Assembly (NCBI RefSeq): GCF_958301595.1
Contig: NZ_CATQJU010000001.1
Coordinates: 1,612,001-1,676,000 of the forward strand
Reading direction: 5' to 3'
DNA: 64,000 nt
Origin: Porphyromonas vaginalis
GTDB taxonomy: Bacteria; Bacteroidota; Bacteroidia; Bacteroidales; Porphyromonadaceae
The notes under the pieces are model-generated. The model was not told where the DNA came from. It was given only the letters and a program-made list of their open reading frames with translations, and ran no database searches. This document shows positions 10,019 through 60,427 of the stretch, in pieces. The translations under genes were made by a program, and so were the position numbers. Position 1 is the first letter of the stretch, and each line of letters opens with the position of its first letter.

Positions 10019-10093
10019 AGATGCTACAGGAAGAAGTGGTTATTCCCAAAATGGAAACACCCACAGCACACAACAAAGCATAGACACCCCACG

Positions 10094-11374: not shown

Positions 11375-11398
11375 TCTCTAACTTCTAACCTCTAAAAC
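11348..11398 (+). repeat. Heptamer array (CTCTAAY) across hsdS stop and hsdR leader
   Basis: About seven tandem 7-base units of CTCTAAC/CTCTAAT/TTCTAAC fill the end of hsdS and the gap up to two bases before the hsdR ATG. They supply the hsdS stop codon and occupy the place of the hsdR ribosome-binding site. The family is the reverse complement of the TTAGAGG arrays at 34.5, 39.9, 50.3 and 60.4 kb. Confidence 0.85.
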
Positions 11399-11400
11399 CT

Positions 11401-14400
11401 ATGTCACAGTACAAGACGATCGCACAGTTGCCGAACTACATTGTCCTAGAGGACTACACCAAGTACGCTGCCCTTGCGGAGCCGCCCGCAGGCTATCAGT
11501 CGGAGGCGCAGCTGGAGCAAGAGTTGATCAAGGACTTAAAGGGGCTGGGCTACCAGTACCGCCCAGACATACACACGCCCGCAACGCTTCTAGCCAACCT
11601 GCGGGAGCAGCTGGAGCGACTCAATGAGGTGACCTTTACCGATGAGGAGTGGCAGCGCCTTCTCAGAGAGTACCTAGATAACCCTAGTGAGGGCATCATA
11701 GATCGTACGCGCAAGGTGCAGCGTGAGTCTGAGTGGGACTTTGTTTTTGACGATGGGCGTATGCAAAACATACGGATCGTGGACAAGAAACTCATCTCAC
11801 GCAATCAGGTGCAGGTGATCAATCAGTTTGAGCAGACGGGCAGCGAGGCAAACCGCTACGATGTGACGATCCTAGTCAATGGTCTGCCGATGGTGCAGGT
11901 AGAGCTGAAGCGGCGTGGCGTGGCGATACGTGAGGCGTTTAATCAGGTGCATCGGTATAGTAAGGAGAGCTTCAACAGTGAGAACTCGCTCTACAAGTAT
12001 CTGCAGATCTTTGTCATCTCCAACGGCACCGACACCCGCTACTTTGCCAATACGTTGACACGTGATAAGAATAGCTTTGACTTTACGATCAACTGGGCAC
12101 TGGCAAACAACAAGCCGATCCGCGACCTGAAGGACTTTACGGCGACCTTCTTCCAGCGCAATACGCTCCTCGAGGTGCTCCTGCACTACTCGGTCCTAGA
12201 CGAGAGCAATACGCTTCTGATCATGCGTCCCTATCAGATCGCCGCCACCGAGCGACTGCTCTGGAAGATACGTAGCTCTTACCAGGCTAAGCTCTGGAGC
12301 AAGCCCGAGGGTGGAGGCTACATCTGGCACACGACCGGCTCGGGCAAGACGCTCACGAGCTTTAAGGCGGCACAGCTGGCGACGCAGATTGACTTCATTG
12401 ATAAGGTCTTCTTCGTGGTAGACCGCAAGGATTTGGACTACCAGACGATGAAGGAGTACAAGCGCTTTGACGAGGAGAGTGTGACTGGCTCCAAGAGTAC
12501 GGCTGGGCTGAAGAAAAACATCGAGACGACGAAAGGCAAGATCATCGTCACGACGATCCAGAAGCTCAACAACCTAATCAAGAGTGAGAGCAGTCTAGCG
12601 GTCTACAATGAGCAGGTGGTCTTTATCTTTGACGAGTGTCACAGGTCGCAGTTTGGCGAGGCGCAGCGTAACATACGGCGTAAGTTCAAGCGGTACTACC
12701 AGTTTGGCTTTACCGGCACGCCCATCTTCCCGGAGAATGCGCTGGGTGCCGATACGACGGCAAGTGTCTTCGGCCAGCAGCTACACGCTTATGTGATCAC
12801 CGATGCGATACGTGATGAGAAGGTGCTGAAGTTTAAGGTGGACTACAACACGGTACTCCCACAGGCTCAAGCTGTCGAGCAGGAGCAAGATGAGGAGAAG
12901 CTACAGAGTGCAAAGAATAAGGCACTCCTGCTACACCCTGAGCGCATTCGTAAAGTGTCTGAGCATATCCTCACGGTCTATCGTGACAAGACGCACCGCA
13001 CACTGGGGGATAGTATGGGCTTCAACGCTATGCTTGCCGTGAGCAGTGTAGAGGCTGCGAAGCTATACTATCAGGAACTGACACGGCTACAGGTTGGTGC
13101 GACTCGTCCGCTACGGATCGCTACGATTTTCTCCTATGCGCCCAATGAGGAGCAGCGTGCTATCGGTGAGATTATGGATGAGGGCTTCGAGCCGTCGGCA
13201 CTGGACTACAGTGCTAAGGAGTTTCTCTCGCAGGTGATCGAGGAGTACAACGCTGCCTTTAAGGTCAACTTTGGGGTGGATAGCGATGGCTTCCAAAACT
13301 ACTATCAGGACCTCTCGAAGCGTATGAAGGATCGTGAGGTGGATCTGCTGATCGTGGTGGGGATGTTTCTCACAGGCTTTGATGCGCCCCGTATGAATAC
13401 GCTCTTTGTGGACAAGAACCTGCGCTACCATGGACTGCTGCAGGCGTTCTCCCGTACGAATCGTATCTACGATGCTACGAAGACGCTGGGCAATATCGTT
13501 TGCTTTAGAGATCTAGAGCCAGCGACGATCGAGGCCTTGAGACTCTTTGGCGATGAGAAGTCGCCCTATGAGATTCTAGAGCGGAGCTACAAGGAGTATC
13601 TGGAGGGCTTTACGGATGAGCAGACTCATCAGGCGCAGCGCGGCTATATGGAGGTGGTGCAGGAGCTACAGAGACGCTTCCCCGATGTGGACGAGATAGA
13701 GAAGACGCAGGACAAGCGGGCGTTTGTCAAGCTCTTTGGTGAGTACCTGAGGATCGACAATGTGTTGCAAAACTTCGATGAGTATGTGCAGTTGCGGGCT
13801 TTGCAGCAGATTGACAAGGAGGATGCCGAGGCGGTGGAAACCTTTAGAGCAGCGTACGGTATCTCGGAGGAGGAGCTGGCGACGATGATGACGATGGAGC
13901 TGCTCCCAGAGCGTGCTGTGCAGAACTACCGCTCTACCTACAACGATATCCGTGAGTGGCTCCACAAGCAGCGTCAGGGTGATGCGCCTAAGGAGACGCT
14001 CCGTGATTGGGACGATGTGGTCTTTGAGGTCACTCTGCTGAAGGCGCAGGAGATAAACCTTGACTATATACTGGGGCTGATCTTCGAGCATAATAAGGCG
14101 AGCATGAGCAAGCCAGATATCGTCGAGGAGATACGACGTATCATCCGAGCTAGTGTGGGCAGTAGAGCTAAGGAGGGACTGATCGTGGACTTTATCCATG
14201 AGACGGACCTAGATGCGCTAGAGACTAGGGCGGATGTGATCACGGCTTTCTTCTCCTATGCGCAGGAGCGTCAGCGGAGTGAGGCGGAGGAGCTGATCGC
14301 TGAGGAGGGGCTAAACGCTGATGCGGCTAGGCGCTACATACAGACCTCGCTACGGCGTGAGTATGCGAGCGATCAGGGTACGGATCTCTACGACATACTG

Positions 14401-14508
14401 CCTAAGATGAGCCCGCTCAATCGAAACTACCTGACGAAGAAGCAGAGCGTCTTCGAGCGTATCGCAGCCTTTGTGGAGAAGTTTAAGGGCGTGGGCGGTG
14501 AAGTCTAG
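11401..14508 (+). CDS. hsdR: Type I RM restriction subunit HsdR (system 1)
   Basis: A 1035-residue motor-nuclease. The nuclease core shows D154 and E168-x-K170 (QVELKRR). The helicase Walker A TTGSGKT is at 311-317, motif II is FDECHRSQ near 415, motif III-like FGFTGTP follows, and motif VI is FSRTNRIYD. It translocates DNA and cleaves at a distance from an unmethylated site. Length is normal and there is no break. A strong hairpin terminator follows. Confidence 0.96.
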
Positions 14509-15690: not shown

Positions 15691-18039
15691 TTATATACGC
15701 TCTAGGTGGGTGTAGCGGATGAGTACCTCGCGGGTCCTGCCGTCGTCGAAGTGGATGGTGAGCTTGCCACCCATGGCACTCTCGATGCGCTCTATCTTGC
15801 CGTCGCCATGACGTGGATGGCGCACGCGGTCGCCGACGTGGTAGCCGTCGATGCTCTCGAGGGCGTTGACCGGCGAACTCTTCGCAAGCATCTGCTGGGG
15901 TGTTGGCTGTTGGCTATTGGCCGTTGGCTGTTGGCTGTTGGCTGTTGGCTGTTGGCTGTTAGCTGTTGGCCATTGGCTGTTGGCCGTTAGCTGATAGCTG
16001 GTACCGATGGGTGCTGCCTCCTCGTGAAGGGTGTAGTGCGTCCGTGGCAGCTCGGCGATGAAGCGGCTGGGGATCATGAGCTCGGTCTTGCCGTTGCGCG
16101 TGCGTATGCTGGTATAGCTGAGTGTACAGAGCTTTTGGGCTCGTGTGATGCCGACGTAGAGGAGTCGGCGCTCCTCTTCGATCATCTCAGCGGTGTCGAG
16201 GCTGCGCGAGGAGGGGAGGAGGTTTTCCTCTACGCCAGCGATGTAGACGTAGGGGAACTCTAGTCCTTTGGCGGCGTGGATGGTCATGAGCTGTATCCGA
16301 TCCTGCGGGGTGGCTCCGCTATGCTGCTCGACATTGTCCTGATCTTGGTTGGTCAGGAGGGGGATCTGCTGGGCAAAGGCGCTGAGCAGTTCGGTGCCAA
16401 GTGGCTTCTCGGCAAAGAGGTTGAGCGGGTCCTGTCGGTAGCGAGCCTCAAATTCGGAGGCACTGCTGACAAACTCCTTGAGGTTGTCGAGCTTGGCCTG
16501 GCTCTCGACGGTGTCTTCGCGTGTGAGCTCAGCGACGATGCCGCTCTCACGGAGTATATGTGCGATCCACTCCTCCAGCTTGGCGTAGTGCTGATAAGCG
16601 GTGGCGAGCGAGTCGATGAGGTTGACAAAAGAGGCTATCTTGTTGCGTACGCCTCGGCTGAGACCGACAGGGTCGGCACTGTCGATGGCGGCGCAGAGCG
16701 CGTCGTAGAGCGATAGCTGCGGGCTGTGCTGCTGGGCATAGAGAGCTACCTTCTCGAGGGTTTTGTCGCCAATGCCTTTGCGAGGATAGGCGATGGCTCG
16801 GCGGAGCGCCAGCTCGTTGTGCGGGTTGATGATGAGCTGGAGGTAAGCTATGGCGTCTTTGATCTCGGCACGCGCATAGAAGGCCATACCTCCGTAGATA
16901 ACGTAGGGGATGCCCTCCGAGAGAAGCACCTCCTCGAACTTACGGCTCTGCGCATTCGTGCGGTAGAGGATGGTCTGGTCAGAGAGCGGTATCTGCTCCT
17001 CATCGTGTCGCTGGGTGATGATGTCGATGAGTCGTGTCGCCTCCTCGTCGGACGAGGTGTAGTGGTAGAGCTGTAGCTTCTCGCCCTCGCCGAGGTCGGT
17101 GTAGACCTCCTTGGGGATGCGCTGCTGGTTGTGCTCGATGAGGGCATTGGCACTGCTGACGATATGGCCTGTGGAGCGGTAGTTTTGCTCTAGCTTAAAG
17201 AGCTTGGCACCGGCAAAAGCTTGCTTGAAGCTGAGGATATTGGCAATGCGTGCCCCTCGGAAGGAGTAGATGCTCTGGGCATCGTCGCCCACGGCAAAGA
17301 TGCGGTTGTGGTCAGCGACGAGGTGACGGGCTAGCTCAAACTGCGAGGTATTTGTATCCTGATACTCGTCGATGAGGAGGAAGTCTATGCCGCTCTTGAT
17401 CTCTTGGTGCGCCTCGGGGAAGTCGCGTATGAGGACGTTGAGGAGGAAGAGCAAGTCGTCGAAGTCCATCGCGTTGCTCTCCTTGCAGCGCTGGGTGTAG
17501 AGGCTGTAGAGCTTGTATAGCTCGCCCTCATGATTCATCGTATCGTACTTGCGGATCTCCTGATTGGCGGCGTAGGCTTGCGGAGAGATAAGCATGTTTT
17601 TCGCATCGGATATGCGCTTGAGGACACGCGTCGGGGTGTAGTTCTTGTCGCTGAGGTCTAGCTCCTTGATGCAGTTGCGTAGGAGTGCCTTGGTGTCACT
17701 GGTGTCGTAGATGGAGTAGTCCTGGCTGTAGCCGAGCAGTGGGGCGTAGCGCCTCAGGATACGTCCGCAGATGGAGTGAAAGGTGCCCATGCGTAGCCTA
17801 TAAGCGATGCTCTCGCCGAGCATGTCGCTGACACGCGAACGCATCTCGCCGGCAGCTTTGTTGGTAAAGGTGAGGGCGTAGAGTCGCTGGGGGGTCCACC
17901 CTTGGTCTACGAGGTGAGCGAGCTTGTAGGTGATGACGCGGGTCTTGCCTGATCCGGCCCCGGCGATGACTAGGGCGGGTCCTTCGTTATAGACGACGGC
18001 AGCTCGCTGTGCTTCGTTGAGTGCAGTGAGGTCTACCAT
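15691..18039 (-). CDS. UvrD/PcrA-type DNA helicase with a heptamer-encoded linker
   Basis: A 782-residue superfamily 1A helicase. The Q motif LNEAQRAAV is at residues 6-14, Walker A GAGSGKT at 27-33, motif II is LLIDEYQDT, motif III DAQSIYSFRG, and motif VI YVGITRAQ. The C-terminus has a Tudor-like domain (GDRVRHPRHGDGKIERI). It unwinds DNA in repair and replication-fork rescue. I chose the ATG at 18039 because an open frame further upstream has no family similarity and overlaps the SWIM protein gene, whose stop is two bases before this ATG. Residues of about 681-713, between helicase core and Tudor domain, are a TANSQQP repeat encoded by a GTTGGCT heptamer tract. Confidence 0.93.
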   Translation of the reverse strand: MVDLTALNEAQRAAVVYNEGPALVIAGAGSGKTRVITYKLAHLVDQGWTPQRLYALTFTNKAAGEMRSRVSDMLGESIAYRLRMGTFHSICGRILRRYAPLLGYSQDYSIYDTSDTKALLRNCIKELDLSDKNYTPTRVLKRISDAKNMLISPQAYAANQEIRKYDTMNHEGELYKLYSLYTQRCKESNAMDFDDLLFLLNVLIRDFPEAHQEIKSGIDFLLIDEYQDTNTSQFELARHLVADHNRIFAVGDDAQSIYSFRGARIANILSFKQAFAGAKLFKLEQNYRSTGHIVSSANALIEHNQQRIPKEVYTDLGEGEKLQLYHYTSSDEEATRLIDIITQRHDEEQIPLSDQTILYRTNAQSRKFEEVLLSEGIPYVIYGGMAFYARAEIKDAIAYLQLIINPHNELALRRAIAYPRKGIGDKTLEKVALYAQQHSPQLSLYDALCAAIDSADPVGLSRGVRNKIASFVNLIDSLATAYQHYAKLEEWIAHILRESGIVAELTREDTVESQAKLDNLKEFVSSASEFEARYRQDPLNLFAEKPLGTELLSAFAQQIPLLTNQDQDNVEQHSGATPQDRIQLMTIHAAKGLEFPYVYIAGVEENLLPSSRSLDTAEMIEEERRLLYVGITRAQKLCTLSYTSIRTRNGKTELMIPSRFIAELPRTHYTLHEEAAPIGTSYQLTANSQWPTANSQQPTANSQQPTANSQQPTPQQMLAKSSPVNALESIDGYHVGDRVRHPRHGDGKIERIESAMGGKLTIHFDDGRTREVLIRYTHLERI
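15900..15998 (-). repeat. GTTGGCT heptamer tract inside the helicase gene
   Basis: About fourteen 7-base units (GTTGGCT, GTTAGCT, ATTGGCC variants, plus-strand sense). Three units make 21 bases, encoding the 7-residue repeat TANSQQP on the minus strand. The same heptamers form intergenic arrays at 22464-22679, 34621-34710 and 50352-50420. Gain or loss of one or two units would shift the reading frame ahead of the C-terminal domain. Confidence 0.9.
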
Positions 18040-26310: not shown

Positions 26311-26485
26311 GAGACTGTTGCAAAAGTCAATAGTCTCACAATCTTGCTTGCAAGATTGTCCTGACTTTGCAGAAAGAATGAAGCGCAAGACGCTGAGGGT
26401 GAGGTCTGAAGGGAGCATGCCTCTGTATGTGACCGAAGCCGAATTCCGAAAGCAACACAGCGACTCGCCTTTATGCAACAGTCTC
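26311..26485 (+). mobile_element. 175-bp MITE-like element, copy 1
   Basis: The element is exactly 175 bases, begins GAGACTGTTGC and ends GCAACAGTCTC, and is flanked on both sides by AAATA, a 5-base target duplication. Inside are a left-end hairpin (GAGACTGTTG with an imperfect CAATAGTCTC) and a second palindrome, ACAATCTTGC with GCAAGATTGT. It has no transposase gene. It lies between the SurA-like and htrA-like genes. Confidence 0.9.
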
Positions 26486-37425: not shown

Positions 37426-37600
37426 AGGACTGCTACAAAAGTCAACAGCCTCACATTCTTGCTCGCAAGACTGTCCTGACTTTGCAGAAAGGATGAAGCG
37501 CAAGGCACTGAGGGTGAAGTCTGAAGGGAGCACACCTTCGTATGTGACCAAAGCCGAATCCCGAAACCAACACAGAGAGTCGCCTTTATGCAATAGTCTC
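37426..37600 (+). mobile_element. 175-bp MITE-like element, copy 2 (decayed)
   Basis: Aligns along its full 175-base length with copy 1 but has many substitutions, including in both tips (AGGACTGCTAC, GCAATAGTCTC). Flanks GAAAA and AAAAA match at four of five bases. Probably an old insertion. Confidence 0.8.
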
Positions 37601-38268: not shown

Positions 38269-38443
38269 GAGATTGCTGCATAAAGGCGCATCGCTGTGTT
38301 GCTCTCGGGATTCGGCTTCGGTCACATACGGAGGTATGTGAGCTTCAGACCTCACCCTCAGCGCCTTGCGCTTCATCCTTTCTGCAAAGTCTAGACAATC
38401 TTGCTCGCAAGGTTGTGAGACTGTTGACTTTTGCAACAGTCTC
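38269..38443 (-). mobile_element. 175-bp MITE-like element, copy 3 (reverse)
   Basis: 175 bases in reverse orientation, flanked on both sides by GAGTT, a perfect 5-base target duplication. The outer tip at 38269 has drifted (GAGATTGCTGC). Confidence 0.88.
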
Positions 38444-38506: not shown

Positions 38507-39205
38507 CTACACGGAGTTACTTGTGACTTTTGCAACAGCCCCCCTTATGCGCCATACGAGCGCAGTGGTTGCCATGAGCAGGAGCAAGCCGAAGATGATC
38601 CAGTAGGTGATACACCTGGTGGATTGCTGCTTTGTCACGACCTCCTGTTGATGCTCGCTCTGCTGCTGAGCTACACGCTCTAGCGTAGTACGCTGCTGCG
38701 CTACGCTATCCCGCTCCTGGACGACACGTCGCCGAGCACGCAGGTAGTGCACGGCCGACTGCTCAGGCCACTTGGCCCCCAGCAGCGAGTCGCCCGTGAG
38801 TCGCGCGACCTCGCTCGGTGGTATGATCGTGTCTACTAGAAGTAGCTCCCACTCCTCTAGAGAGCTGTCCCGGTTACGCTGCGTAGCATCACGCACTGCC
38901 AGCTCACTATGGTGCTGTGACTGCTCTAGCGACTCCGCACTGGAGCGGTGTCGCTTGCTACCACAGCTCACTAGGAGACTGGCGGTGAGTGTGAGTGCGA
39001 GTAGTGTTGTCTTACTGAGACTGTTGCATAAAGGCGCATCGCGGTGTTGCTTTCGGGATTCGGCTTCGGTCACATACGGATGTATGTGAGCTTCAGACCT
39101 CACCCTCAGAGCCTTGCGCTTCATCCCTTTTGCAAAGTCTAGACAATCTTGCTTGCAAGGTTGTGAGACTGTTGACCTTTGCAATAGTCTCTTACTGCCT
39201 CGCAT
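38507..39205 (-). CDS. Lipoprotein with C-terminal membrane segment, split by an in-frame MITE
   Basis: The open frame is 232 codons, but residues of about 5-64 come from a MITE (39017-39191) plus its 5-base duplication, 180 bases in all. Without it the gene would read MRGSKTTLLALTLTASLLVSC, a normal lipoprotein signal, followed by a charged helical body of about 110 residues and a membrane segment (about residues 200-222). Small lipoprotein plus helix plus membrane segment, beside holin-like and amidase genes, suggests a spanin-like lysis role, but this is inference. The signal now sits ~60 residues inside, so export is probably lost. The 3' end runs into another MITE fragment. Confidence 0.6.
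   Translation of the reverse strand: MRGSKRLLQRSTVSQPCKQDCLDFAKGMKRKALRVRSEAHIHPYVTEAESRKQHRDAPLCNSLSKTTLLALTLTASLLVSCGSKRHRSSAESLEQSQHHSELAVRDATQRNRDSSLEEWELLLVDTIIPPSEVARLTGDSLLGAKWPEQSAVHYLRARRRVVQERDSVAQQRTTLERVAQQQSEHQQEVVTKQQSTRCITYWIIFGLLLLMATTALVWRIRGAVAKVTSNSV
38525..38540 (-). repeat. MITE end fragment
   Basis: GACTTTTGCAACAG matches the tip of the 175-base element. It forms the last codons of the lipoprotein gene at 38507-39205. Confidence 0.55.
39017..39191 (-). mobile_element. 175-bp MITE-like element, copy 4, inside a gene
   Basis: Exactly 175 bases in reverse orientation with TTACT on both sides. Tips GAGACTGTTGC and GCAATAGTCTC. Together with the duplicated five bases it adds 180 bases, so the host reading frame stays open. 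Confidence 0.93.
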
Positions 39206-39404
39206 GGTACTTGTACTTATAGTCTAGTCCGAGGAGAGCCCCCGCGAAGGTCATCACCTCACCATAGGCAACCAGCACCGAGCTATCGATGACTCCCAGA
39301 GGAGGAACCGCAAAGCCCGCCACGAGGAGTCCGATGCCAGAGACTGAGAGGAGTACCGCTAGGTATAGCTGCTTATGTCCTTGGGGTCTTATCGTTTGTG
39401 CCAT
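39192..39404 (-). CDS. Small two-segment membrane protein, holin-like
   Basis: A 70-residue protein with two hydrophobic segments (about 13-32 and 40-58), a short turn between, and a basic C-terminus (YKYKYHARQ). It overlaps the amidase gene by 16 bases and ends where the split lipoprotein gene begins. Size, topology and place beside an amidase suggest a phage-type holin; no holin family motif was recognised. Confidence 0.6.
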   Translation of the reverse strand: MAQTIRPQGHKQLYLAVLLSVSGIGLLVAGFAVPPLGVIDSSVLVAYGEVMTFAGALLGLDYKYKYHARQ

Positions 39405-39856
39405 AGGGATAGATACTCTTTGAATGCATCAAAACAAGGACACGCCTTCAACCACTCGTGCGGCTCTACGACGCCGTTGTGGTTTAGGTCGGGACTCAGG
39501 TCCCTATGCCCTACGATCCGTGCGTTAGGGTGTATAGCGACCAGCGTCTGGAGTAGCTTAAGCATAGCGGCACGCTGCTCCGGGGTACGTGTATCCCAGG
39601 GCGTTCCGTCGGGTCTCAGTCCCCCTTCGTAGCATACGCCTAGGCTACACTGGTTGTAGCCGATAGCATGCGCCCCAGGCATGGAGGGCGGTCTCATCGA
39701 TTCGATCACACCAGCACGTGTGATGTAAAAGTGGTATCCCGCCATGGCAAAGCCTCTGGCGCGGTGGTCTTGATCCAGCTGCCAGGCACTGTAAGTCATA
39801 TTGCTGCGTGTAGCACTGCAGTGTATGACGATATATTTGATGTCGTTTGGTCTCAT
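39389..39856 (-). CDS. N-acetylmuramoyl-L-alanine amidase (T7 lysozyme-like)
   Basis: A 155-residue amidase_2 (PGRP-type) protein with zinc ligands visible as IHCSAT (His 12), GHRDLSPD (His near 128) and ACPCF (Cys near 140). YHFYITRAGVI is the usual core strand. It cleaves the lactyl amide of peptidoglycan. There is no signal peptide, as in phage endolysins that leave through a holin. Such amidases are common beside HU-like genes in Bacteroidetes. Confidence 0.9.
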   Translation of the reverse strand: MRPNDIKYIVIHCSATRSNMTYSAWQLDQDHRARGFAMAGYHFYITRAGVIESMRPPSMPGAHAIGYNQCSLGVCYEGGLRPDGTPWDTRTPEQRAAMLKLLQTLVAIHPNARIVGHRDLSPDLNHNGVVEPHEWLKACPCFDAFKEYLSLWHKR

Positions 39857-39868
39857 AGTATAGTGGGT

Positions 39869-40026
39869 TTTAGAGATTAGAGGTTAGAGATTAGAGGTTA
39901 GAGGTTAGAAGTTAGAAGTTAGAGGTTAGAAGTTAGAGATTGGAGCACTAGTGTTTCTAGTGATGCTAGTGCCACTAGGGTCTAACCTCTAACCTCTAAA
40001 ATCTAACCTCTAGGGTCTAACTTCTA
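39869..40026. repeat. TTAGAGG heptamer array, two arms in opposite sense
   Basis: About ten TTAGAGG/TTAGAAG/TTAGAGA units (39869-39944), a centre with CTAGTG-type repeats (39947-39975), then about six units of the reverse complement CTAACCT (39979-40024). The whole could fold into a long imperfect hairpin. The HU-like gene's stop codon lies in the right arm. Confidence 0.85.
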
Positions 40027-40542
40027 GATTCCGATATTCCCTTCCTCTTGGTTAGAGCCACCACCCGTCCCATTGCCTGGAGTAGGCTTGCTAGGATTAG
40101 AGCCCTCACTTGAGGGGTTGCTCGGCTTATTGGCCGACTCGGTAGGATCAGTGGGGTCACTCTTGCGGTAGCTCGCATTGGTCATCTTGTGACGGATCTG
40201 TGCGCCAGGGACGAAGATCACTCTATTGCCGTGGATCATCTCTCGCTTAAACTCCTCGGGCTTGTCACACGACTTGCTGCGCAGGGTTGCTCTAAAGCGA
40301 CCTAGATCGCCTAGATCCACGATACGACCATTAGACAGCTCCATAGAGAGCAGCATCGAGACCGTGTTCATGACGCTGAGCACATCGCCCATAGAGATTG
40401 CAGAGATCTGTGAGACCATCTGAGCGATGTCAGCTTGTGAGGTGACGCCGTCGTACTTAGCCTGTGCGTAGTACTTGGTCTCTAGAGAGTTTGGGGTTGC
40501 ACCTTTTCGATTGATTTGCTGGATAGCATACTTGATTGCCAT
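40024..40542 (-). CDS. HU-like DNA-binding protein with disordered tail
   Basis: A 172-residue protein. Residues 1-125 resemble the HU/IHF-like family common in Bacteroidetes (NGRIVDLGDLGRFRATLRSK, VIFVPGAQIRHKM). The C-terminal ~45 residues are Pro, Ser, Gly and Asn rich and look disordered. It leads the minus-strand set with the amidase, holin-like and lipoprotein genes. A nucleoid-type DNA-binding role is inferred from the family. Confidence 0.82.
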   Translation of the reverse strand: MAIKYAIQQINRKGATPNSLETKYYAQAKYDGVTSQADIAQMVSQISAISMGDVLSVMNTVSMLLSMELSNGRIVDLGDLGRFRATLRSKSCDKPEEFKREMIHGNRVIFVPGAQIRHKMTNASYRKSDPTDPTESANKPSNPSSEGSNPSKPTPGNGTGGGSNQEEGNIGI

Positions 40543-40894: not shown

Positions 40895-40946
40895 GAGACT
40901 GTTGCAAAAAGGATGAAGCGCAAGGCACTGAGGGTGAGGTCTGAAG
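40895..40946 (+). repeat. Internally deleted MITE copy
   Basis: Starts with the intact tip GAGACTGTTGCAAAA, then jumps to the middle of the element (GGATGAAGCGCAAGGCAC) and stops at GGTCTGAAG. The junction fits recombination between TTGCA motifs in the element. Confidence 0.7.
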
Positions 40947-41004
40947 CGTACAAAAGCTTCTTAATAACAGACCTCGCAAGAAACTAGGCTATAAAACTCC
41001 CTAT

Positions 41005-41248: not shown

Positions 41249-41437
41249 GTGCTGGTGGAAAAAGGAGTTTCACAGACGGAACTCGCTGAAGATCTTGGAA
41301 AAAGCTTTAGTACGGTTAATGCCTATTGCTCAAACAGGCAGCAGCCTTCATTGGAGTTGCTCTTTCAAATAGCCGATTATCTGAAGGTTAGTATTAAAGA
41401 CTTAATTGTAGAAAACGAGTCTAAAGACATTGAATAA
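41249..41437 (+). CDS. XRE-family regulator of RM system 2 (possible early frameshift)
   Basis: A 62-residue helix-turn-helix protein from a GTG start (QTELAEDLGKSFSTVNAYCSNRQ is the HTH region). An ATG at 41211 followed by a five-A run is out of frame by one base. With six A's it would read MLKKWKKLNRIKVV and join this frame, giving a 75-residue protein. So this copy has lost one A, or starts at GTG without helix 1. It overlaps the hsdM start by eight bases. Such controllers time methylase and nuclease expression in RM systems. Confidence 0.75.
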   Translation: MLVEKGVSQTELAEDLGKSFSTVNAYCSNRQQPSLELLFQIADYLKVSIKDLIVENESKDIE

Positions 41438-44321
41438 GCAAAAGATAAAACTCAGCCAACTTGAAGGCCTACTAAAGGGTGTGGCCGATGACCTGCGCGG
41501 CAAGATGGATGCTGCCGACTATAAGGAGTATATCATGGGTATGCTCTTCTTGAAGCGCATGAGCGATGTGTTCGATCAGAAACGAGAAGAGGTGCGTCGC
41601 CAGTTTGAGCATTTGCCCAAAGAGGCAATCAATCAGCTTTTAGAGGACAAGGGTACCTATGGCGACACTTTCTTCGTGCCTAAACGTGCCCGTTGGAATG
41701 AGGGCTGGATTGACGAAGAAGGTCATGAAGTGCCTCCAATTAAGCACCTTAAAGAGAGTATAGGTGCTTATCTAAATAAGGCTTTATGGGCCATAGAGGA
41801 TGAAAATCCGGAAACGCTGAGCGGCATTTTCAAGGAGCGCATCAACTTCAACCGTCAGGTTGATGGCAAACCAGTGGTAAAGAATGCCGATCTCGAGAAG
41901 ATTATCAAGCGTTTCAACGATTTTCCTGCTTTGATTAACGAGAACTTTGAGTTCCCTGACTTGCTTGGAACTGCTTATGAGTATATTTTAAAGTTCTTTG
42001 CAGATGAAGCTGGTAAGAAAGGTGGGCAATTCTATACTCCTGGACAGGTGGTACGCCTACTGGTTCAGTTGCTGGAACTTAAAGAGGGCATGAAGATATG
42101 CGACCCTACTGTGGGATCCGGCGGTATGCTCATACAATGTCACCAGTGGTTAGAAGAACAGGGTAAAAACGCGGACAATATAGAATTATTCGGTCAAGAG
42201 AATGATCCTGCGGTGGTGGCTTTAAGTCGCATGAACCTCATTTTGCACAACATCACCAAATACCGTATAGAGTATTGTGATACCATTGCAGAGCCGGCTT
42301 TGGTGAGCAATGGCCAACTTATAAAGTTCGATCGATTGATAGCAAATCCGCCGTTTTCTCAAAACTATAACCGAGCAGAGATGCGACACCCTGAACGGTT
42401 CACCTACGGTTTCCTACCCGAAAGTGGTAAAAAGGCGGATCTTATGTTTGTACAGCATATGCTATCTGTTTGTACATCTGGCGGAAAGGTAGTCGTTATC
42501 ATGCCGCATGGTGTATTGTTCCGTGGTGGCAAGGAGAAGGATATCCGTCGATTGATGCTCACTGGGAAGAATGCCGATGGCACAGAGGCCGGAGTGAAAC
42601 ACGATGTACTTGAAGGGGTAATCGGTCTTCCGCCCCAGTTGTTCTATGGTACAGGAATACCAGCTTGTGTGATGGTCTTCAACAAGCAGAAGCCTGATGC
42701 ACTGAAAGACAAAGTGTTCTTTATCAATGCCGACCTTGAATACAAGGAGGGTAAGAAGCAGAACACACTGCGTCCTGAAGACATAGAGAAAATCACCACT
42801 ACCTTCCTTTCAAAGACGGAAATACCCGGATATTCGCGCCTTGTGCCTATGAGCGAGATAGCCGATGAACGCAATGACTTCTCTCTCAATATCCGTCGGT
42901 ACGTGGACAACACGCCCGCTCCGGAAGCACAAGACGTGAAGGCGCATCTCGTGGGTGGCGTACCCGATTCGGAGATAGCAGACATTGCCACACGTCATGC
43001 ACATAAGTTCTCGTTCATTCCAAAGGAGATATTCAAAAAGCGGAATGCTAACTACAGCGATTTCTGTATCACAGACAAGAACGAGATTAAGGATATAGTC
43101 GAGCACGATGACAGCGTTCTTTGCAAGGTGAGCCGTATGAATAAAGCTTTAGAGGATTGGTGGCAACAGGGTAGCAAAGTCTTTGCTTCGCTTGCCAGCA
43201 ACCGACAAGCCAATCTGCCTGCGATTCGTGCCCGTCTGTTGGGTGATATCGACCATGGGCTGACGCCCCTTGGTGTGCTCGACCGCTTTCAAGTGAGCGG
43301 TATATTTGTGCGTTGGTGGGATGGCATAAAGTATGACCTGAAGACCATTCGTCAACGTGGTTGGGATATCGACCTCGTAAATAATGACGATTTCTGCTAC
43401 CTCATTATCAACAAATACTTCCAAGCGGAGCAACAACGAATAGATGAGTTGCAGGCACAGATTGCAAGGTTGGAAAGCGACCTTTCAGTGCTTGTAGAGG
43501 AAGCTCTTGAACTCTGCGAATATGAACCTGAGGAAAGTGAAGATGGCAAGGAAACGAAGATTACGCCCAAACTGGCCAAAGAACAGATAGCCATAGCTAC
43601 GGAAGAAATCGGCGAGACTGAGGCGCAACCGTATAACGATAAGCTGAAAGAAATCACAGACAAGGAAGCTGAGATCAAGCAAACCAAGTCGGATTTGCAG
43701 GCGGCGGAGGAAATGTTGGATACTTGCGTCCGCCTGAAATGCTACGGCATTGATGAGGAAATAGCTCCTATCACCGAAAAGCAGGAGATTGCTCAAAAGC
43801 AGCTGGACGAACTTAATCTAGATCTCAGCTTACGCATCGCTTCCATAGCCGACCGCTTGGACGACATTACCGGCCTTGAACAAATAAACAAGTCGGTTGC
43901 TTCATTGGAGAGACGTACTAAAGCTGCTCAGAAGAAGCTACCCACTATCGAAGGTAAACAGTTGTTATCAACCATTGCTGTGGTAAAGAGATCACTCAAG
44001 GAAGTGAAAAAGCAAGACAAAGGACTTCGTGACACATTGGAAGCCATTGACAGTCGAATTGACCAAGTGCGTCAGCTTTTCAAACAGATGGGTGGCCAAG
44101 TGACTGATGAAGAATGCTGTGAGCTTATCCTACAAAAGCATTTCAGCCTCGTAAGCACAGAAATGAACCACTACCTTGATACCGAGAAACGTGCGCTCAT
44201 TGCAGCTTACGAGCATCTGTTTGAGAAATACGCAGTATCAGCCCGTCAGATTGCTGAAGAGCGTGATGCTGCTATGAAATCGTTGAACGATGCGCTTACC
44301 GCACTACATTATTTAGATTGA
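41430..44321 (+). CDS. hsdM: Type I RM methyltransferase subunit HsdM (system 2), long form
   Basis: A 963-residue protein starting at TTG, the only start before the conserved N-terminus, overlapping the XRE stop. AdoMet motif DPTVGSGG is at 225-232 and catalytic NPPF at 306-309. The usual HsdM ends near 520; here about 440 extra residues follow, mostly coiled coil with heptad Leu/Ile (about 665-900). The extension includes WWDGIKYDLKTIRQRGWDID, which is also seen at the end of some other HsdM proteins. Base use is more AT-rich than the surrounding genes. Confidence 0.93.
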   Translation: MNKQKIKLSQLEGLLKGVADDLRGKMDAADYKEYIMGMLFLKRMSDVFDQKREEVRRQFEHLPKEAINQLLEDKGTYGDTFFVPKRARWNEGWIDEEGHEVPPIKHLKESIGAYLNKALWAIEDENPETLSGIFKERINFNRQVDGKPVVKNADLEKIIKRFNDFPALINENFEFPDLLGTAYEYILKFFADEAGKKGGQFYTPGQVVRLLVQLLELKEGMKICDPTVGSGGMLIQCHQWLEEQGKNADNIELFGQENDPAVVALSRMNLILHNITKYRIEYCDTIAEPALVSNGQLIKFDRLIANPPFSQNYNRAEMRHPERFTYGFLPESGKKADLMFVQHMLSVCTSGGKVVVIMPHGVLFRGGKEKDIRRLMLTGKNADGTEAGVKHDVLEGVIGLPPQLFYGTGIPACVMVFNKQKPDALKDKVFFINADLEYKEGKKQNTLRPEDIEKITTTFLSKTEIPGYSRLVPMSEIADERNDFSLNIRRYVDNTPAPEAQDVKAHLVGGVPDSEIADIATRHAHKFSFIPKEIFKKRNANYSDFCITDKNEIKDIVEHDDSVLCKVSRMNKALEDWWQQGSKVFASLASNRQANLPAIRARLLGDIDHGLTPLGVLDRFQVSGIFVRWWDGIKYDLKTIRQRGWDIDLVNNDDFCYLIINKYFQAEQQRIDELQAQIARLESDLSVLVEEALELCEYEPEESEDGKETKITPKLAKEQIAIATEEIGETEAQPYNDKLKEITDKEAEIKQTKSDLQAAEEMLDTCVRLKCYGIDEEIAPITEKQEIAQKQLDELNLDLSLRIASIADRLDDITGLEQINKSVASLERRTKAAQKKLPTIEGKQLLSTIAVVKRSLKEVKKQDKGLRDTLEAIDSRIDQVRQLFKQMGGQVTDEECCELILQKHFSLVSTEMNHYLDTEKRALIAAYEHLFEKYAVSARQIAEERDAAMKSLNDALTALHYLD

Positions 44322-44322
44322 T

Positions 44323-45567
44323 ATGGGTATGAGCGAAACAAAGAAACATATTCCGCATGGTTGGGACAGTCAGCCTATAGGTGCGCTCGTTACTGAACAG
44401 CAGAAGAGCAATCTCAATGTCAGTGATGCAACTGGTGAAGGGAAATATCCATTTTTTACAAGTGGAGAGGTTGTACTCAGGCACTCAGATAATCTCGTGA
44501 ACGGTGAGAATTTATACCTTGCCGATGGAGGAATTGCGGAAGTTAAGTTTTATAACGGACCTGCTGCGTATTCAAACCATACATATGTTCTGAAAGCAAA
44601 AAAGCAGATTGTTGAAGGTGGTTACCTTTATGCTTTTCTCGATGCTCATTGTTCAAATATAGACTATCTCTATTTTCAGGGTACAGGATTAAAGAATCTT
44701 CAAAAGAAAGATTTTAAATCGTTTTCTGTATTATACCCAAAAGATAGGTCAGAGCAGCAACGCATTGTGCGATTGCTTACTTGTTTAGACGAGGCGATAG
44801 CCAAGACTGAGGCGCTGATTGAGAAATATCGTCGCATCAAACAAGGCATGATGCACGACCTGCTCACCTATGGCATTGACAAGGACGGAAATATCCGCTC
44901 GCCGAAAACTCATCGCTTCAAACCTTCACGTCTTGGAATGATTCCTGAGGAGTGGGAATGTTCTTCCATAGGTGAAAAATGTTATGTCACTAAATTAGCA
45001 GGATATGAATTTACAAAATATATTCATTATCAAGATCACGGTGAAATTGTAGCACTAAGAGCTCTTAATATTAAACATGAGAAGATTGTTCTTGACGATG
45101 TAAGATATATATCTCGCGAAACTTCAAATTTACTATCCAGATCTAAATTGTACGCAGGAGATATTTTAATTACATATATTGGGGCATATATAGGTGATAT
45201 AGCCCAAGTACGAGAAAACGACAGGTTTCATCTTGCTCCTAATATAGCCAAAATTGTTGCGGGTGAAGATATACTATCAGACTTCTTAGAGAATATATTA
45301 CGTTCCGAGAAAGTTCAATTTTACTTTAAAAAATTGATAACAACAACGGCTAATCCGAGCCTCACTATGGGGCAAATCCGCAGCTCTTATATAGTATATC
45401 CAAAAGATAAATTGGAACAAAAAATCATTTGCGAGAGGATTAGAAATATCAATAATATAATATATAAAGAAAAGGCTTCCCTTGCAAAACTCTGTGCCGA
45501 GCGACAAGGTCTTCTCAATGACCTCTTAACAGGCAAAGTCCGCATTCCCGAAACAGTAAATATTTGA
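44323..45567 (+). CDS. hsdS: Type I RM specificity subunit HsdS (system 2)
   Basis: A 414-residue protein with two target-recognition domains and conserved helical spacers (DEAIAKTEALIEKYRRIKQGM and a C-terminal EKASLAKLCAERQGLLNDLL). The recognition domains are strongly AT-rich. The ATG lies one base after the hsdM stop; a second ATG two codons later is equally possible. It sets a target different from that of system 1, since the recognition domains share no evident similarity. Confidence 0.94.
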   Translation: MGMSETKKHIPHGWDSQPIGALVTEQQKSNLNVSDATGEGKYPFFTSGEVVLRHSDNLVNGENLYLADGGIAEVKFYNGPAAYSNHTYVLKAKKQIVEGGYLYAFLDAHCSNIDYLYFQGTGLKNLQKKDFKSFSVLYPKDRSEQQRIVRLLTCLDEAIAKTEALIEKYRRIKQGMMHDLLTYGIDKDGNIRSPKTHRFKPSRLGMIPEEWECSSIGEKCYVTKLAGYEFTKYIHYQDHGEIVALRALNIKHEKIVLDDVRYISRETSNLLSRSKLYAGDILITYIGAYIGDIAQVRENDRFHLAPNIAKIVAGEDILSDFLENILRSEKVQFYFKKLITTTANPSLTMGQIRSSYIVYPKDKLEQKIICERIRNINNIIYKEKASLAKLCAERQGLLNDLLTGKVRIPETVNI

Positions 45568-45571
45568 AATT

Positions 45572-48500
45572 ATGATAAAGAGCAACGATAATAAGTATGT
45601 GGGTGAACTCGGCAAGGCTATGAAGTTCGATGAAAAACACAGCGTAGAGATACCCTTTATGGAGCAACTCCGAGCACAAGGCTGGGACGAGGGTGACAAC
45701 GAAGTGCTGATGCTCGAGCTTGGACAAACCCCTGAAGATAGCTACCGCCATTCATTCCGAGAAGTGGTGCTCATGCCCAAGCTCAAAGCCGCAGTGCGCC
45801 GTATCAACCCGTGGCTCACTGATGGTCAGATGGACGACGTAATCACACGCATTACCAGCTTCGGCAGTGGCAAACTGCTTGATAATAACCGTGAAGTGCT
45901 GCGTCTGCTGCTCGAAGGTACCACCGTGGCACGCAACGAACAAACAGGTGATCTGTCGCCAGAAGTGCGTTACATTGACTTCCGCCATCCAGAAAACAAC
46001 GTCTTCACCGCCATCTCACAATTCAAAGTAGCTATTCCGGCAACCGACAACCACATCATTCCCGATGCGGTGCTCTTTGTCAACGGTCTGCCCCTCGTAG
46101 TGGTTGAAGCAAAATCGCCTAAAATCACTGAGCCTATCCCCGAAGCAATTGACCAGCTGATGCGCTACAGCGAGCAACGTGGCTATGTAGGTGAAGGAAA
46201 TCAGGAGCTGTTTGCCTATAACCAATTTCTCGTAGCCACCTGTCGCAACCAGGCCATGTTTGGTACCATCACTACGCATACCATCAAGTACTTCTACCGT
46301 TGGACAGACCCTTACCCCATGACGGTGAACGACCTGCAACACGGACAGTCTGCCCCCAACGACCAGCAGCGGCTTGTGGCTGGTATGCTAACTCTCCAAA
46401 ATTTGCTCGACATCCTGCGTGTCTTCACCATATTCAAGACCGATGATAAGGGAAAGACCATCAAGGTGGTAGGGCGTTACCAACAGTTCCGTGCCGTGAA
46501 GAAAATGGCGGAGCGACTGAAAAAAGTCAAGAACAAGATAGAGCGTGGCGGCATATTATGGCACACGCAAGGTTCGGGTAAAAGCCTCACGATGATGTTC
46601 CTTGTTCGGCAAATGCGTATAGATGCCGAATTGGCCACATGGAAGATCGTGTTTGTGACCGACCGCACACAGCTCGAAGAACAACTGGGCGAAACGGGAA
46701 CGGGCATAGGTTTGACTCTCCATAAAGCCGAATGCATTGACCCTCTCAACCCACCCAAAGGAAATAGTTTGAAAGAGTTGCTCAAAACCGATGGCAGCGA
46801 CTTAGTAATGGCCATGATACACAAGTTTCAGGAAACTGGGGAACTCGGGAAAGGCATGGCTTTGTTTCCCGAACTCAATACGAGCGACAAGGTACTCATC
46901 ATGACCGATGAAGCCCACCGCTCGCAATACTCTCTATTGGGAGCCAACCTCGACCGGGCATTGCCTAATGCAACCAAAATCGGTTTTACTGGTACACCAA
47001 CTGCCAAGACTGAGCGTCTATACAAAGACTATATAGACCGTTATACCATGCGCGAAAGCATAGATGACGGCGTGACACTCGAAATCATCTATCAAGGCTT
47101 CACACACAATGCAGAAGTAGAAGATAAAACTGATGCAGACAAGAAGTTTGAAGATGTCTTCAGCGACTACAACCTTGTGGAGCGAATGCAAATACTCGGC
47201 TTCGGATCTCGTGATGCCTATCTTGACAGCGAGGTAACGATCCGCACCAAAGCCAAGAGCATGATGCAGCATTATGTGAGCCAAATATTCAGCGGAGGTT
47301 TTAAAGCACAGATTGTGGCCAACAGCCGCATTGCAGCCGCACGTTATAAAAAAGCCGTAGAAGATGCGCTGAAAGAAGAAATAGGCAAATTGGAGCAAGA
47401 CAACCCTAACCATATAGATCTTGAAACTTTGCGGAAGGTACGAGCCGCTGTTGTCATTTCGGGCGACCGTAACGACCCGCCCGAAGTGAAACAGTATATC
47501 GACAAAACGTATCACGAGCGGAGTATCAAGTCCTTTAAACTGCCATTTGGCGCTGAAGACGAGGAAGACAACACAATCAAGGGCGATGTGGGAATCATTA
47601 TCGTGTACAACATGCTCACCACCGGCTTCGATGCCCCCATTGAGCAGGTGCTGTACCTTGACAGAGTGATTATTGCCCATAATCTGTTGCAAACTATCGC
47701 CCGCCCGAACCGCAAAGGTCCGGAGGGCAAAGACTATGGCTTTGTTGTTGACTACGTAGGAATAGGCCACCATCTACGCGAAGCCATCCTCAAAACCGAT
47801 GAAAAACAGCAACAGGTTGACAGTGGAGAGATTGAGAACATTATTGCAGCCATTGGCAACGAAGAACAGCTGTTGAAAGATTTGGCCGAAGCCCACAAAG
47901 CCATCATGCACTTCATTAAAGTGGAGCACGGTATAAACGACCTGACTGATGAAGATGCATTCTATGACCTATTCTATGATGAGACGATACGCGGCACATA
48001 TATTGAGCTGTACCGTAAATTTTCGACAGCTTTCAATGCCCTGCTTCCTGCCAAAGAGGCTTTAAATTACTACGAAGATTGGGTGCAGCTTACCGAAATC
48101 AACGCATTGGCAATGAAGCACCTTGGTGATGGGCGGTTGAGTATGAAAGGTCTGCCACCCAAACTGTTGGCCATAGCTGATGCCTATTTGAAGAATAAGG
48201 GCATTGAGGAAACCGTGAAGCCAATATCCATCATGGATGAAGACTTCATGGAGGAAACCAAAAAGCGCAAGCGCGACAAGACCAAGGCCACACAAGTGGA
48301 GCATGCTATCCGTAATTTCATCGACATCAACATGGATGAAGATCCAGAGCTTTTCGCATCATTCTCAACAGCCATAGAAGAAATACTCAAAAACTTCAAA
48401 GGCAACTGGAAGAGAATTTATGACGAGCTGGAGAAGTTGCGCCAAAAGATATTGCAACGCCAACAAGAACCGACTTATGGACTTGATCGAAGGACTCAAA

Positions 48501-48802
48501 TGCCATTCTTCCGTATATTCAAAGCCGTATTGTGGGATGACCGCGATTTAAACGAGGATGAAATCAGCCAAAACGTGGCATTGACCCAGGCCGTAGCATT
48601 GAAGCTCCAAACGGAAATTAAGTTAGTTGGCTTTTGGGACAACGTAATGGCTCAAAAAAGGCTGAAGGCAGACCTGCAAAACGAAGTGCTTTTGTCAAAG
48701 GACTTTTGTTCGTTGCCCGACATGATGCAGAAGTACAAGCAGGTGATAAGCCGTATAATGGAAGTAGCCCGAGCCAACCATAACCATCTCATAAGCCAAT
48801 GA
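45572..48802 (+). CDS. hsdR: Type I RM restriction subunit HsdR (system 2)
   Basis: A 1076-residue motor-nuclease with D165 and E179-x-K181 (VVVEAKSP), Walker A GSGKS in WHTQGSGKSLT, motif II TDEAHRSQ, FTGTP, and ARPNRKG as motif VI. Intact and of usual length. It starts four bases after hsdS and overlaps the next gene by four (ATGA). Confidence 0.95.
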   Translation: MIKSNDNKYVGELGKAMKFDEKHSVEIPFMEQLRAQGWDEGDNEVLMLELGQTPEDSYRHSFREVVLMPKLKAAVRRINPWLTDGQMDDVITRITSFGSGKLLDNNREVLRLLLEGTTVARNEQTGDLSPEVRYIDFRHPENNVFTAISQFKVAIPATDNHIIPDAVLFVNGLPLVVVEAKSPKITEPIPEAIDQLMRYSEQRGYVGEGNQELFAYNQFLVATCRNQAMFGTITTHTIKYFYRWTDPYPMTVNDLQHGQSAPNDQQRLVAGMLTLQNLLDILRVFTIFKTDDKGKTIKVVGRYQQFRAVKKMAERLKKVKNKIERGGILWHTQGSGKSLTMMFLVRQMRIDAELATWKIVFVTDRTQLEEQLGETGTGIGLTLHKAECIDPLNPPKGNSLKELLKTDGSDLVMAMIHKFQETGELGKGMALFPELNTSDKVLIMTDEAHRSQYSLLGANLDRALPNATKIGFTGTPTAKTERLYKDYIDRYTMRESIDDGVTLEIIYQGFTHNAEVEDKTDADKKFEDVFSDYNLVERMQILGFGSRDAYLDSEVTIRTKAKSMMQHYVSQIFSGGFKAQIVANSRIAAARYKKAVEDALKEEIGKLEQDNPNHIDLETLRKVRAAVVISGDRNDPPEVKQYIDKTYHERSIKSFKLPFGAEDEEDNTIKGDVGIIIVYNMLTTGFDAPIEQVLYLDRVIIAHNLLQTIARPNRKGPEGKDYGFVVDYVGIGHHLREAILKTDEKQQQVDSGEIENIIAAIGNEEQLLKDLAEAHKAIMHFIKVEHGINDLTDEDAFYDLFYDETIRGTYIELYRKFSTAFNALLPAKEALNYYEDWVQLTEINALAMKHLGDGRLSMKGLPPKLLAIADAYLKNKGIEETVKPISIMDEDFMEETKKRKRDKTKATQVEHAIRNFIDINMDEDPELFASFSTAIEEILKNFKGNWKRIYDELEKLRQKILQRQQEPTYGLDRRTQMPFFRIFKAVLWDDRDLNEDEISQNVALTQAVALKLQTEIKLVGFWDNVMAQKRLKADLQNEVLLSKDFCSLPDMMQKYKQVISRIMEVARANHNHLISQ

Positions 48803-50011: not shown

Positions 50012-50276
50012 ATAATTTAGAGTCGGCTACATATCGATACGGGGCTGTGTCGGGGAAAAGTGATTTCCACGTGGATATTTTGAAATATCCAGGTGGAGAA
50101 TTTTTATTTCCCAGGTAGGAAATAAAAAATTCCTCGGAGGAATCAAATGAAACTTCGGAGGAATTTTTTGACGCCCACGTGGAAAATAAAAAATATCCAC
50201 GTGGAGATTTGAGATTTTCCACGTGGATATTCGAGAAAGGAGGGAATCGGACGAATTTCCCTGTAAAGAGATGTAA
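50012..50276 (+). repeat. 265-bp element of CACGTG and CTCGGAG palindromes, copy A
   Basis: Matches 60096-60359 over its full length at a level I estimate above 80%. It holds at least six small palindromes: TCCACGTGGA four times, TTCCTCGGAGGAA, and TTTCCCAGGTAGGAAA. Ends are conserved (AAAGTGATTTCCACGTGG on the left, TTTCCCTGTAAAG on the right). No protein of note is encoded. Confidence 0.85.
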
Positions 50277-50280
50277 AGGG

Positions 50281-50420
50281 AGATTAGAGGTTAGAAGTTA
50301 GAGATTAGAGGTTAGAGGGGAGAGGTTAGAGGGGAGAGATTAGAGGTTAGAGGCGGTTGGCGGTTGGCGGTTGGCGGTTAGCTGTTGGCTGTTGGTGGTT
50401 GGCTGTTGGCGGTTGGTGTC
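50281..50420. repeat. TTAGAGG then GTTGGCG/GTTGGCT heptamer arrays
   Basis: About ten TTAGAGG-type units with GGGAGAGG variants (50281-50352), running directly into about nine GGCGGTT/GGCTGTT units (50352-50420). The two heptamer families abut here. Confidence 0.85.
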
Positions 50421-50824: not shown

Positions 50825-50999
50825 AAGACTGTTGCATAAAGGCGAATCGCTGTGTTGCTTTCGGGATTCGGCTTCGGTCACATACGTAGGTATGTGAGCT
50901 TCAGACCTCACCCTCAGCGCCTTGCGCTTCATCCTTTCTGCAAAGTCAGGACAATCTTGCGAGCAAGATTGTGAGACTGTTGACTTTTGCAACAGTCTC
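50825..50999 (-). mobile_element. 175-bp MITE-like element, copy 5 (reverse)
   Basis: 175 bases, reverse orientation; tips AAGACTGTTGC and GCAACAGTCTC. Flanks ACGAT and AAGAT agree at four of five bases. The right-hand half is close to identical to copies 3 and 4. Confidence 0.88.
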
Positions 51000-60095: not shown

Positions 60096-60359
60096 ATAAT
60101 TTACAACTAACTACATATCAAAATGGCATTGTGTCGGAGAAAAGTGATTTCCACGTGGATATTTCGAAATCCCCACGTGGAGAATAAAAAATTCTTCGGA
60201 GGAATGAAATGAAACTTCGGAGGAATGAAATGAAACTTCGGAAGAAATGATTCGCCCCCACGTGGAAAATAAAAAACATCCACGTGGAGATTTGAGATTT
60301 ACCACGTGGATATTCGAGAAAGGAGGGAATCGGACAAATTTCCCTGTAAAGATATGTAA
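60096..60359 (+). repeat. 264-bp element of CACGTG and CTTCGGAGGAA palindromes, copy B
   Basis: Same orientation and ends as copy A at 50012-50276. The central CTTCGGAGGAATGAAATG unit is duplicated here, while the CAGGTAGG palindrome of copy A is missing. Confidence 0.85.
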
Positions 60360-60427
60360 TTAGAGGTTAGAGGTTAGAGATTAGAAATCAGGGATTGGGG
60401 GAATCGGAAGGGGAGAGGTTAGAGGGT
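60360..60427. repeat. Short TTAGAGG heptamer tracts
   Basis: About four units at 60360-60386 and two at 60414-60427, directly after the palindrome element, as at 50281. Confidence 0.7.

Follow-up and report, generated by a model that had tools for sequence, protein, structure and literature searches.

Here we report the identification of a 175-bp MITE in a lipoprotein gene of Porphyromonas vaginalis, where it separates the start codon from the signal peptide and preserves the frame, as well as the recurrence of such insertions: at least eight independent read-through events were found in this and related genomes, five of them within the n-region or where the core of a signal peptide begins. 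As a probable explanation, to which we give roughly two chances in three, the n-region would act as a tolerant landing site, the residues encoded by the element being removed together with the cleaved signal and the mature protein being unchanged. Envelope genes with such a pre-signal insertion include lptE and a DUF4835 gene, and an element ahead of the signal appears compatible with export.

Results

An in-frame MITE insertion in a lipoprotein gene

The window, which is the whole stretch of 64,000 nucleotides analysed here (contig NZ_CATQJU010000001.1), contains the following features at the insertion site.

39017..39191: MITE, 175 bp, ends GAGACTGTTGCA / TGCAATAGTCTC, assigned from its sequence, its 144-copy family and the TIR match to ISPg4
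39012..39016: target-site duplication TTACT, copy 1
39192..39196: target-site duplication TTACT, copy 2
38507..39205, minus strand: lipoprotein gene with the insertion, 232 aa, native start codon at 39205-39203
38963..39016, minus strand: native signal peptide downstream of the element, SKTTLLALTLTASLLVSC
38974-38963, minus strand: lipobox LVSC, judged by eye
39122..39124, minus strand: in-frame ATG in the element, possible alternative start (MKRKALRV...)
38269..38443: second MITE copy, immediately downstream of the lipoprotein gene, duplication GAGTT

We confirmed the in-frame position of the MITE, downstream of the start codon of this gene and upstream of its export signal. As an earlier note on this DNA had calculated, the 175-bp element and its 5-bp duplication add 180 bases and preserve the frame: the minus-strand ORF 39205..38507 reads through MRGSK, 58 element codons and SKTTLLALTLTASLLVSC, with TTACT on both sides of the element and the native ATG intact. 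The 60 residues that the note placed ahead of the signal peptide correspond to the 175-bp element plus its duplication. Its claim that removal of the 180 bases restores an uninterrupted sequence with a normal lipobox (LVSC by eye) also stood, since the resulting MRGSKTTLLALTLTASLLVSC agrees with real uninterrupted homologues. More full and partial copies of the same family lie elsewhere in the window (26311-26484, 37430-37600, 50826-50999 and 40902-40952).

Empty sites and a second insertion in related genomes

The 2.52-Mb genome containing the window (G000) was grouped in one genus with P. uenonis 60-3 (G002), P. uenonis DSM 23387 (G013) and an uncultured Porphyromonas MAG (G018); a further genome, G020, is a single chromosome of 2,186,370 bp that we take to be P. 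asaccharolytica DSM 20707. A search of 61 genomes with the part of the protein that follows the element found it in five, the own genome among them. The uninterrupted homologue that the earlier note had suggested looking for is present in G020, where the protein begins MRSSKRRLTALILTACLLLSC, and in G002, where it begins MRSYKCVVCALILSASMLLSC; in both, the equivalent ATG overlaps the end of the upstream gene. The G018 gene carries the same insertion at the same site. By the earlier note, the same N-terminal residues without MITE features would have spoken against an insertion; G018 shares these residues, but together with the element and its duplication. The G013 gene also holds the element in frame, in the opposite orientation, 3 bases away and with the duplication AAGAG. 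Two independent insertions have thus struck the first six codons of one gene. In total, the five homologues contain two independent in-frame insertions and no frame-breaking one.

The element family

The own genome contains 73 matches to the MITE, some of them partial, so the element is no chance resemblance. Exactly 175 bp was the length of 113 of the 144 distinct copies collected from six genomes, the remaining 31 having other lengths by that measure, so the arithmetic behind the statement that the element always keeps frame holds for most of the family and "always" is slightly too strong. A perfect 5-bp duplication flanks 109 of the 144 copies if shifts of the ends by as many as 4 bases are allowed, and 92 of the 144 with default ends. 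The element is short and multicopy, has no transposase inside, and possesses 12-bp TIRs and a target-site duplication, as is characteristic of MITEs. Its consensus ends, GAGACTGTTGCA / TGCAACAGTCTC, match those given in Table 2 of PMC4596501 for ISPg4, an IS5-family IS of P. gingivalis (GAGACTGTTGCA / CGCAACAGTCTC), at 12 of 12 positions on the left and 11 of 12 on the right, as expected of an IS5-family derivative.

An autonomous parent IS with a matching TIR pair was sought by eye at 22 DDE_Tnp_1 loci of the own genome, with 3 mismatches allowed, and none was seen; two of these loci (L300 and L312) have lone 27-nt palindromes at a distance on both sides. The element had no match in plasmids or phages. 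Its palindromic right end of about 27 nt was also observed alone, at G020:C1:344518, 337950, 166659, 92566 and other positions, one such lone palindrome lying about 450 bp past the spanin-like gene, and it may act as a terminator. Copies common to two species (L031/L056, L286/L292 and L053/L141) differ less than their flanking synonymous sites, which blurs the age of the shared insertions and may reflect gene conversion or exchange.

The consensus is open in three of six frames (plus 1, plus 2 and minus 1), in keeping with the earlier statement that the element has an open frame; on both strands, phase 1 is free of stops. Three open frames occurred in 37 of 5000 dinucleotide shuffles of the consensus. 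Among the 130 gap-free copies that do not belong to the known in-gene set, 109 keep the minus-1 frame too; these counts exclude two of 161 copies, which contain N. Therefore an open frame alone proves little, and we rejected it as proof of selection on the element.

Other repeats were noticed in the window. Seven-base repeats of the GTTGGCT type at 15864-16028, inside a helicase-like ORF (18486-15691, by eye), encode TANSQQP repeats; units of this type also occur at several other sites, and here they form a further kind of repeat that is read in frame. Arrays of a TAGAGGT-type heptamer lie on either strand outside annotated-looking genes (39845-39973, 11335-11408, 50252-50366 and 60328-60414).

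Eight read-through insertions in protein genes

In the frame catalogue of the 144 copies, each copy was represented by its longest stop-to-stop frame, provided that this reached 120 codons, which left 49; the plus phase-2 frame was examined only within the 144, and gene status of the 49 was judged by eye and for some by Pfam. The catalogue is small and incomplete, and the eight independent read-through insertions found are thus a lower bound. Five lie ahead of or at the start of a signal-peptide core and three inside other proteins.

Pre-signal: window lipoprotein gene, G000 and G018
Pre-signal: window lipoprotein gene, independent event, G013
Pre-signal: BACON and Endonuclease_NS lipoprotein (families by Pfam), G000, G002 and G018
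Pre-signal: LptE, G020
Pre-signal: DUF4835 protein, G000 and G020
Inside protein: TatD (Pfam), G000 and G018
Inside protein: chorismate-binding enzyme (Pfam), G013
Inside protein: Exo_endo_phos_3 protein (Pfam), G016

The LptE protein of G020 reads MARSRLLYIM, 58 element codons and IIGVVMLLLMGTSC, compared with the uninterrupted MVRSKLLYIIGVVMLLLMGTSC and similar forms in G000, G002, G013 and G018. Ten LptE N-termini were extracted, of which G005 gave nothing and G012 a wrong stretch; in the eight genomes with a readable N-terminus (G000, G002, G011, G013, G014, G016, G018 and G020), the element is present only in G020. The DUF4835 protein of G020 reads MKRFFLALV, 58 element codons and LVALLLWLP..., almost identically in G000, and has no insert in G002 and G013; the motif used located the N-terminus in G002, G013 and G020 among eight sequences. 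Empty sites were shown for four of the five pre-signal events, namely both insertions in the window gene and those in LptE and DUF4835.

Each of the eight events is read in phase 1, on either the plus or the minus strand. With six equally likely frames, all of them would fall in the three open ones with a probability of 0.004, or of about 0.02 (8 of 9) if the probable non-read-through copy L019 is added as a ninth event. The proposal that the element is suited to making protein inserts is therefore borne out by the eight events. Five of the 49 catalogued frames (L019, L068, L105, L150 and L154) contain a stop within the element and extend for 20 codons or more in both directions from it; by eye, L019 looks like a probable gene, and the rest were judged non-coding.

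Several copies were left out of the eight. At L019 (G000:C1:8135-8309), the element stands behind MTPT, and its minus phase 0 has a stop and ends with ATG CAA CAG in frame, so the element may supply the start; a Pfam search of this gene fragment found no family. At L045 (G000:C1:2007166-2007340), in a TonB-receptor-like CarboxypepD_reg/Plug gene, the element sits exactly at the start, where AT of the duplication and G of the element rebuild the ATG. At L201, in a repeat protein of G013, the element lies 20 codons before the end and part of it is N. Several other copies appear to sit at the final codon or two of a gene, or immediately ahead of a start. Codon-usage scoring of all sites proved too weak and was not used, the window lipoprotein itself scoring 0.065 against a threshold of 0.15.

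The host gene and its cluster

The window gene is the last gene of a lysis-like cluster on the minus strand (38507-40542) that looks phage-derived and is composed of HU-HIG, Amidase_2, holin-like and spanin-like genes.

40024..40542, minus strand: HU-HIG DNA-binding protein, first gene of the cluster
39389..39856, minus strand: N-acetylmuramoyl-L-alanine amidase (Amidase_2), phage endolysin-like
39192..39404, minus strand: 70-aa small membrane-type protein, holin-like, stop codon inside the target duplication
38552..38611, minus strand: C-terminal hydrophobic segment (probable TM) of the lipoprotein, judged by eye

The Amidase_2 enzyme upstream of the lipoprotein gene matches phage amidase and endolysin families. 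The 70-aa protein, a putative holin, matches 20 phage records, 18 of which are Porphyromonas phages, and in the one phage record inspected its homologue adjoins the endolysin gene. A lipoprotein with a C-terminal TM is the topology of u-spanins. The window lipoprotein combines, by eye, an N-terminal lipobox with a C-terminal hydrophobic segment, and the Amidase_2 and prophage-type small protein genes upstream provide the corresponding neighbourhood; it thus looks like a unimolecular spanin, a resemblance that we express as spanin-like only. Searches for phage relatives of the lipoprotein returned no PHROG, no Pfam family above the cut-off and no phage record by tblastn, and its C-terminus is variable among homologues. 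The cluster may be a domesticated lysis cassette.

Two separate restriction-modification sets were also observed in the window, at 8471-14508 and 41430-48802, with HsdM, HsdS-like and HsdR-like genes by eye; N6_Mtase and HsdM_N were confirmed only for the ORF at 41430.

The n-region as a probable tolerant landing site

Signal peptides are cleaved off after export, and residues added ahead of the hydrophobic core are therefore absent from the mature protein. An insertion between the start codon and the core would merely lengthen the n-region. Translation would start at the native ATG or at the in-frame ATG of the element, the element-coded stretch would remain cytoplasmic while the unchanged core and lipobox are exported, and signal peptidase II (I for the DUF4835 protein) would remove element and signal together, leaving the mature protein unaltered.

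The space available for such insertions is small. By a strict and crude rule that undercounts, 6 of 40 window genes have a recognisable signal, and codons between start and core make up 45 of 17,766 (0.25%). Even with 3% qualifying codons, the chance of at least five of eight insertions falling ahead of the core would be about 1e-6, if insertions were even along genes. A rough sum for non-coding DNA gives 73 matches per ~380 kb (15% of the genome, from the window gene list), i.e. about 0.2 per kb, and a similarly rough one for pre-core codons gives three insertions per ~5-16 kb, i.e. 0.2-0.6 per kb; thus the n-region seems about as permissive as spacer DNA.

The properties of the inserted stretch agree in part with a cytoplasmic position. 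In minus orientation it is hydrophilic, with a maximal KD over 11 residues of -0.27 to 0.36, compared with 1.89 to 2.89 for the signals, and its net charge of +3 to +6 fits such a position. In plus orientation it is less hydrophilic (maximal KD 1.59), and the copies have charges of -1 (P. uenonis) and +1. The 12 residues directly before the core carry a charge of only 0 to +2 in the minus orientation, compared with -3 in the plus orientation, which is not ideal for an n-region and counts against the proposed mechanism.

Instead of tolerance, the pattern might reflect targeting, if the transposase prefers A+T-rich gene starts and only harmless insertions after the ATG survive. Other copies just before or at start codons, such as L045, agree with such a preference; however, it would predict similar numbers behind the starts of cytoplasmic proteins, where one candidate (L019) compares with five events in signal peptides, and we consider targeting in place of tolerance somewhat unlikely. 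Targeting and a tolerant n-region are not mutually exclusive.

The earlier note had offered two outcomes for the window gene, abolished export or a new coding start supplied by the element; our analysis does not support these as the only two options, and a long n-region removed with the signal appears to fit best. A new start at the internal ATG (39124-39122, codon 23 of 58) would give a shorter extension. On the minus strand, all but one of 143 gap-free copies (142) have this ATG, in 133 of 143 an ATG stands at the corresponding codon of plus phase 1, and minus phase 0 likewise ends with ATG CAA CAG, as at L019. Yet its presence in nearly all copies, genic or not, says nothing about its use. 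The TatD insert in G000 and G018 follows the N-terminal DCHTH, which we take to be the metal-binding motif of TatD, and must be read through for a working enzyme, and the window gene has retained its native ATG. A new internal start is thus possible but not needed, and as the explanation of the pattern it seems rather improbable.

Export and purifying selection

LptE is probably needed for life. A single match was found in G020, with the element, and one match in each of 31 genomes (own included, G020 searched apart). The DUF4835 protein likewise has one match in G020, with the element, and was present in 24 of 30 genomes searched, and so is not universal. After its insert, 53 synonymous and 4 nonsynonymous changes were counted over 294 codons between two species (dN/dS 0.02). 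After the shared insertions, dN/dS was 0.12-0.14 for the BACON-endonuclease lipoprotein (three species) and 0.29 for TatD; the value of 0.35 for the window gene, from one species pair, does not represent strong constraint. Within the element part, with few changes, dN/dS ranged from 0.18 to 0.89. These ratios, as estimated from the aligned sequences, show purifying selection outside the element in the genes with shared insertions. The DUF4835 region differs between the two species at 4-9 per 100 positions upstream and 4-7 downstream, so a recent local transfer of the gene is not indicated; the element itself, with 4 differences in 175, is somewhat too similar for its apparent age. Since the only LptE and DUF4835 genes found in G020 carry the insertion and the shared-insertion genes are under apparent purifying selection, loss of export is unlikely, and this half of the pair offered by the earlier note is not favoured.

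For the window gene itself, export could nevertheless have been abolished and the gene be a tolerated, non-functional relic of the lysis-like cluster. The prophage-derived look of the cluster, where loss might be neutral, the dN/dS of 0.35 in the one pair and the variable C-terminus would suit a relic. Against it stand the five homologues with two independent in-frame insertions and zero frame breaks, and the use of the same location in LptE and DUF4835, for each of which G020 yielded a single gene. Weaker evidence comes from the frame kept in G000 and G018 despite 15 and 13 substitutions from the consensus, as the chance of staying open is about 0.44 after 18 random substitutions and two of four other diverged copies are open. 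Altogether we regard a relic as quite improbable, and cleavage of the insert together with the signal as the favoured account of the window gene as well.

Discussion

In-frame MITE inserts are known in Rickettsia (RPE), enterobacteria (RU) and Coxiella. Rickettsia RPEs are small multicopy elements found in frame in protein genes, and the gmk product with an RPE insert was reported to be active with changed affinity (PMC10969869, PMC2229807). The eight read-through events share with RPEs their in-frame insertion in protein genes. However, as described in these sources, RPEs occur in ORFs at large, whereas five of the eight insertions here precede the core of a signal peptide or lie at it, and their extension would be lost with the signal; the elements also differ in phylum, in the IS5-type ends and in the clear 5-bp duplication. 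In Yersinia YPO1552, an RU-2 (YPAL) element similarly places a MITE frame at the N-terminal end of a protein predicted to be exported (PMC2759123, PMC2229807), but there the MITE itself is part of a new predicted signal peptide, whereas here an existing signal follows the insert and relatives have empty sites. The MITEPgRS/MITE464 element and ISPg4 of P. gingivalis share the left TIR GAGACTGTTGCA with our element (PMC4596501); 41-nt tandem repeats have been described for MITE464, and by eye none were seen in the 175-bp element, which has no transposase inside. The Coxiella QMITE1 and QMITE2 elements are likewise MITEs with ORFs overlapping genes, some in frame, but no pre-signal location is described and the word 'signal' does not appear in the available text of PMC5896051. 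Finally, the ESPR of autotransporters resembles the present case as a long N-terminal extension on a working signal peptide (PMC2805444); it is native and of about 25 residues, whereas the extension here is a mobile element. Searches of the open-licence literature returned no account of in-frame insertions that recur in front of an intact signal peptide, and the recurrent pre-signal location appears to be new.

The insertions provide a natural experiment on the permitted length of the n-region, in envelope genes found once per genome (LptE and DUF4835). They also call for caution in annotation, since a start-calling rule could mis-assign the starts of insert-carrying genes. From the proposed mechanism it can be predicted which positions within genes mobile elements may occupy at low cost. 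A more tentative extension, which we hold at somewhat below even odds, is that bacterial n-regions in general offer in-frame mobile elements a safe harbour, with an insertion rate like that of intergenic DNA; if true, exported genes would accept whole elements after the start codon, and the insert would be cut away with the signal and be absent from the mature protein.
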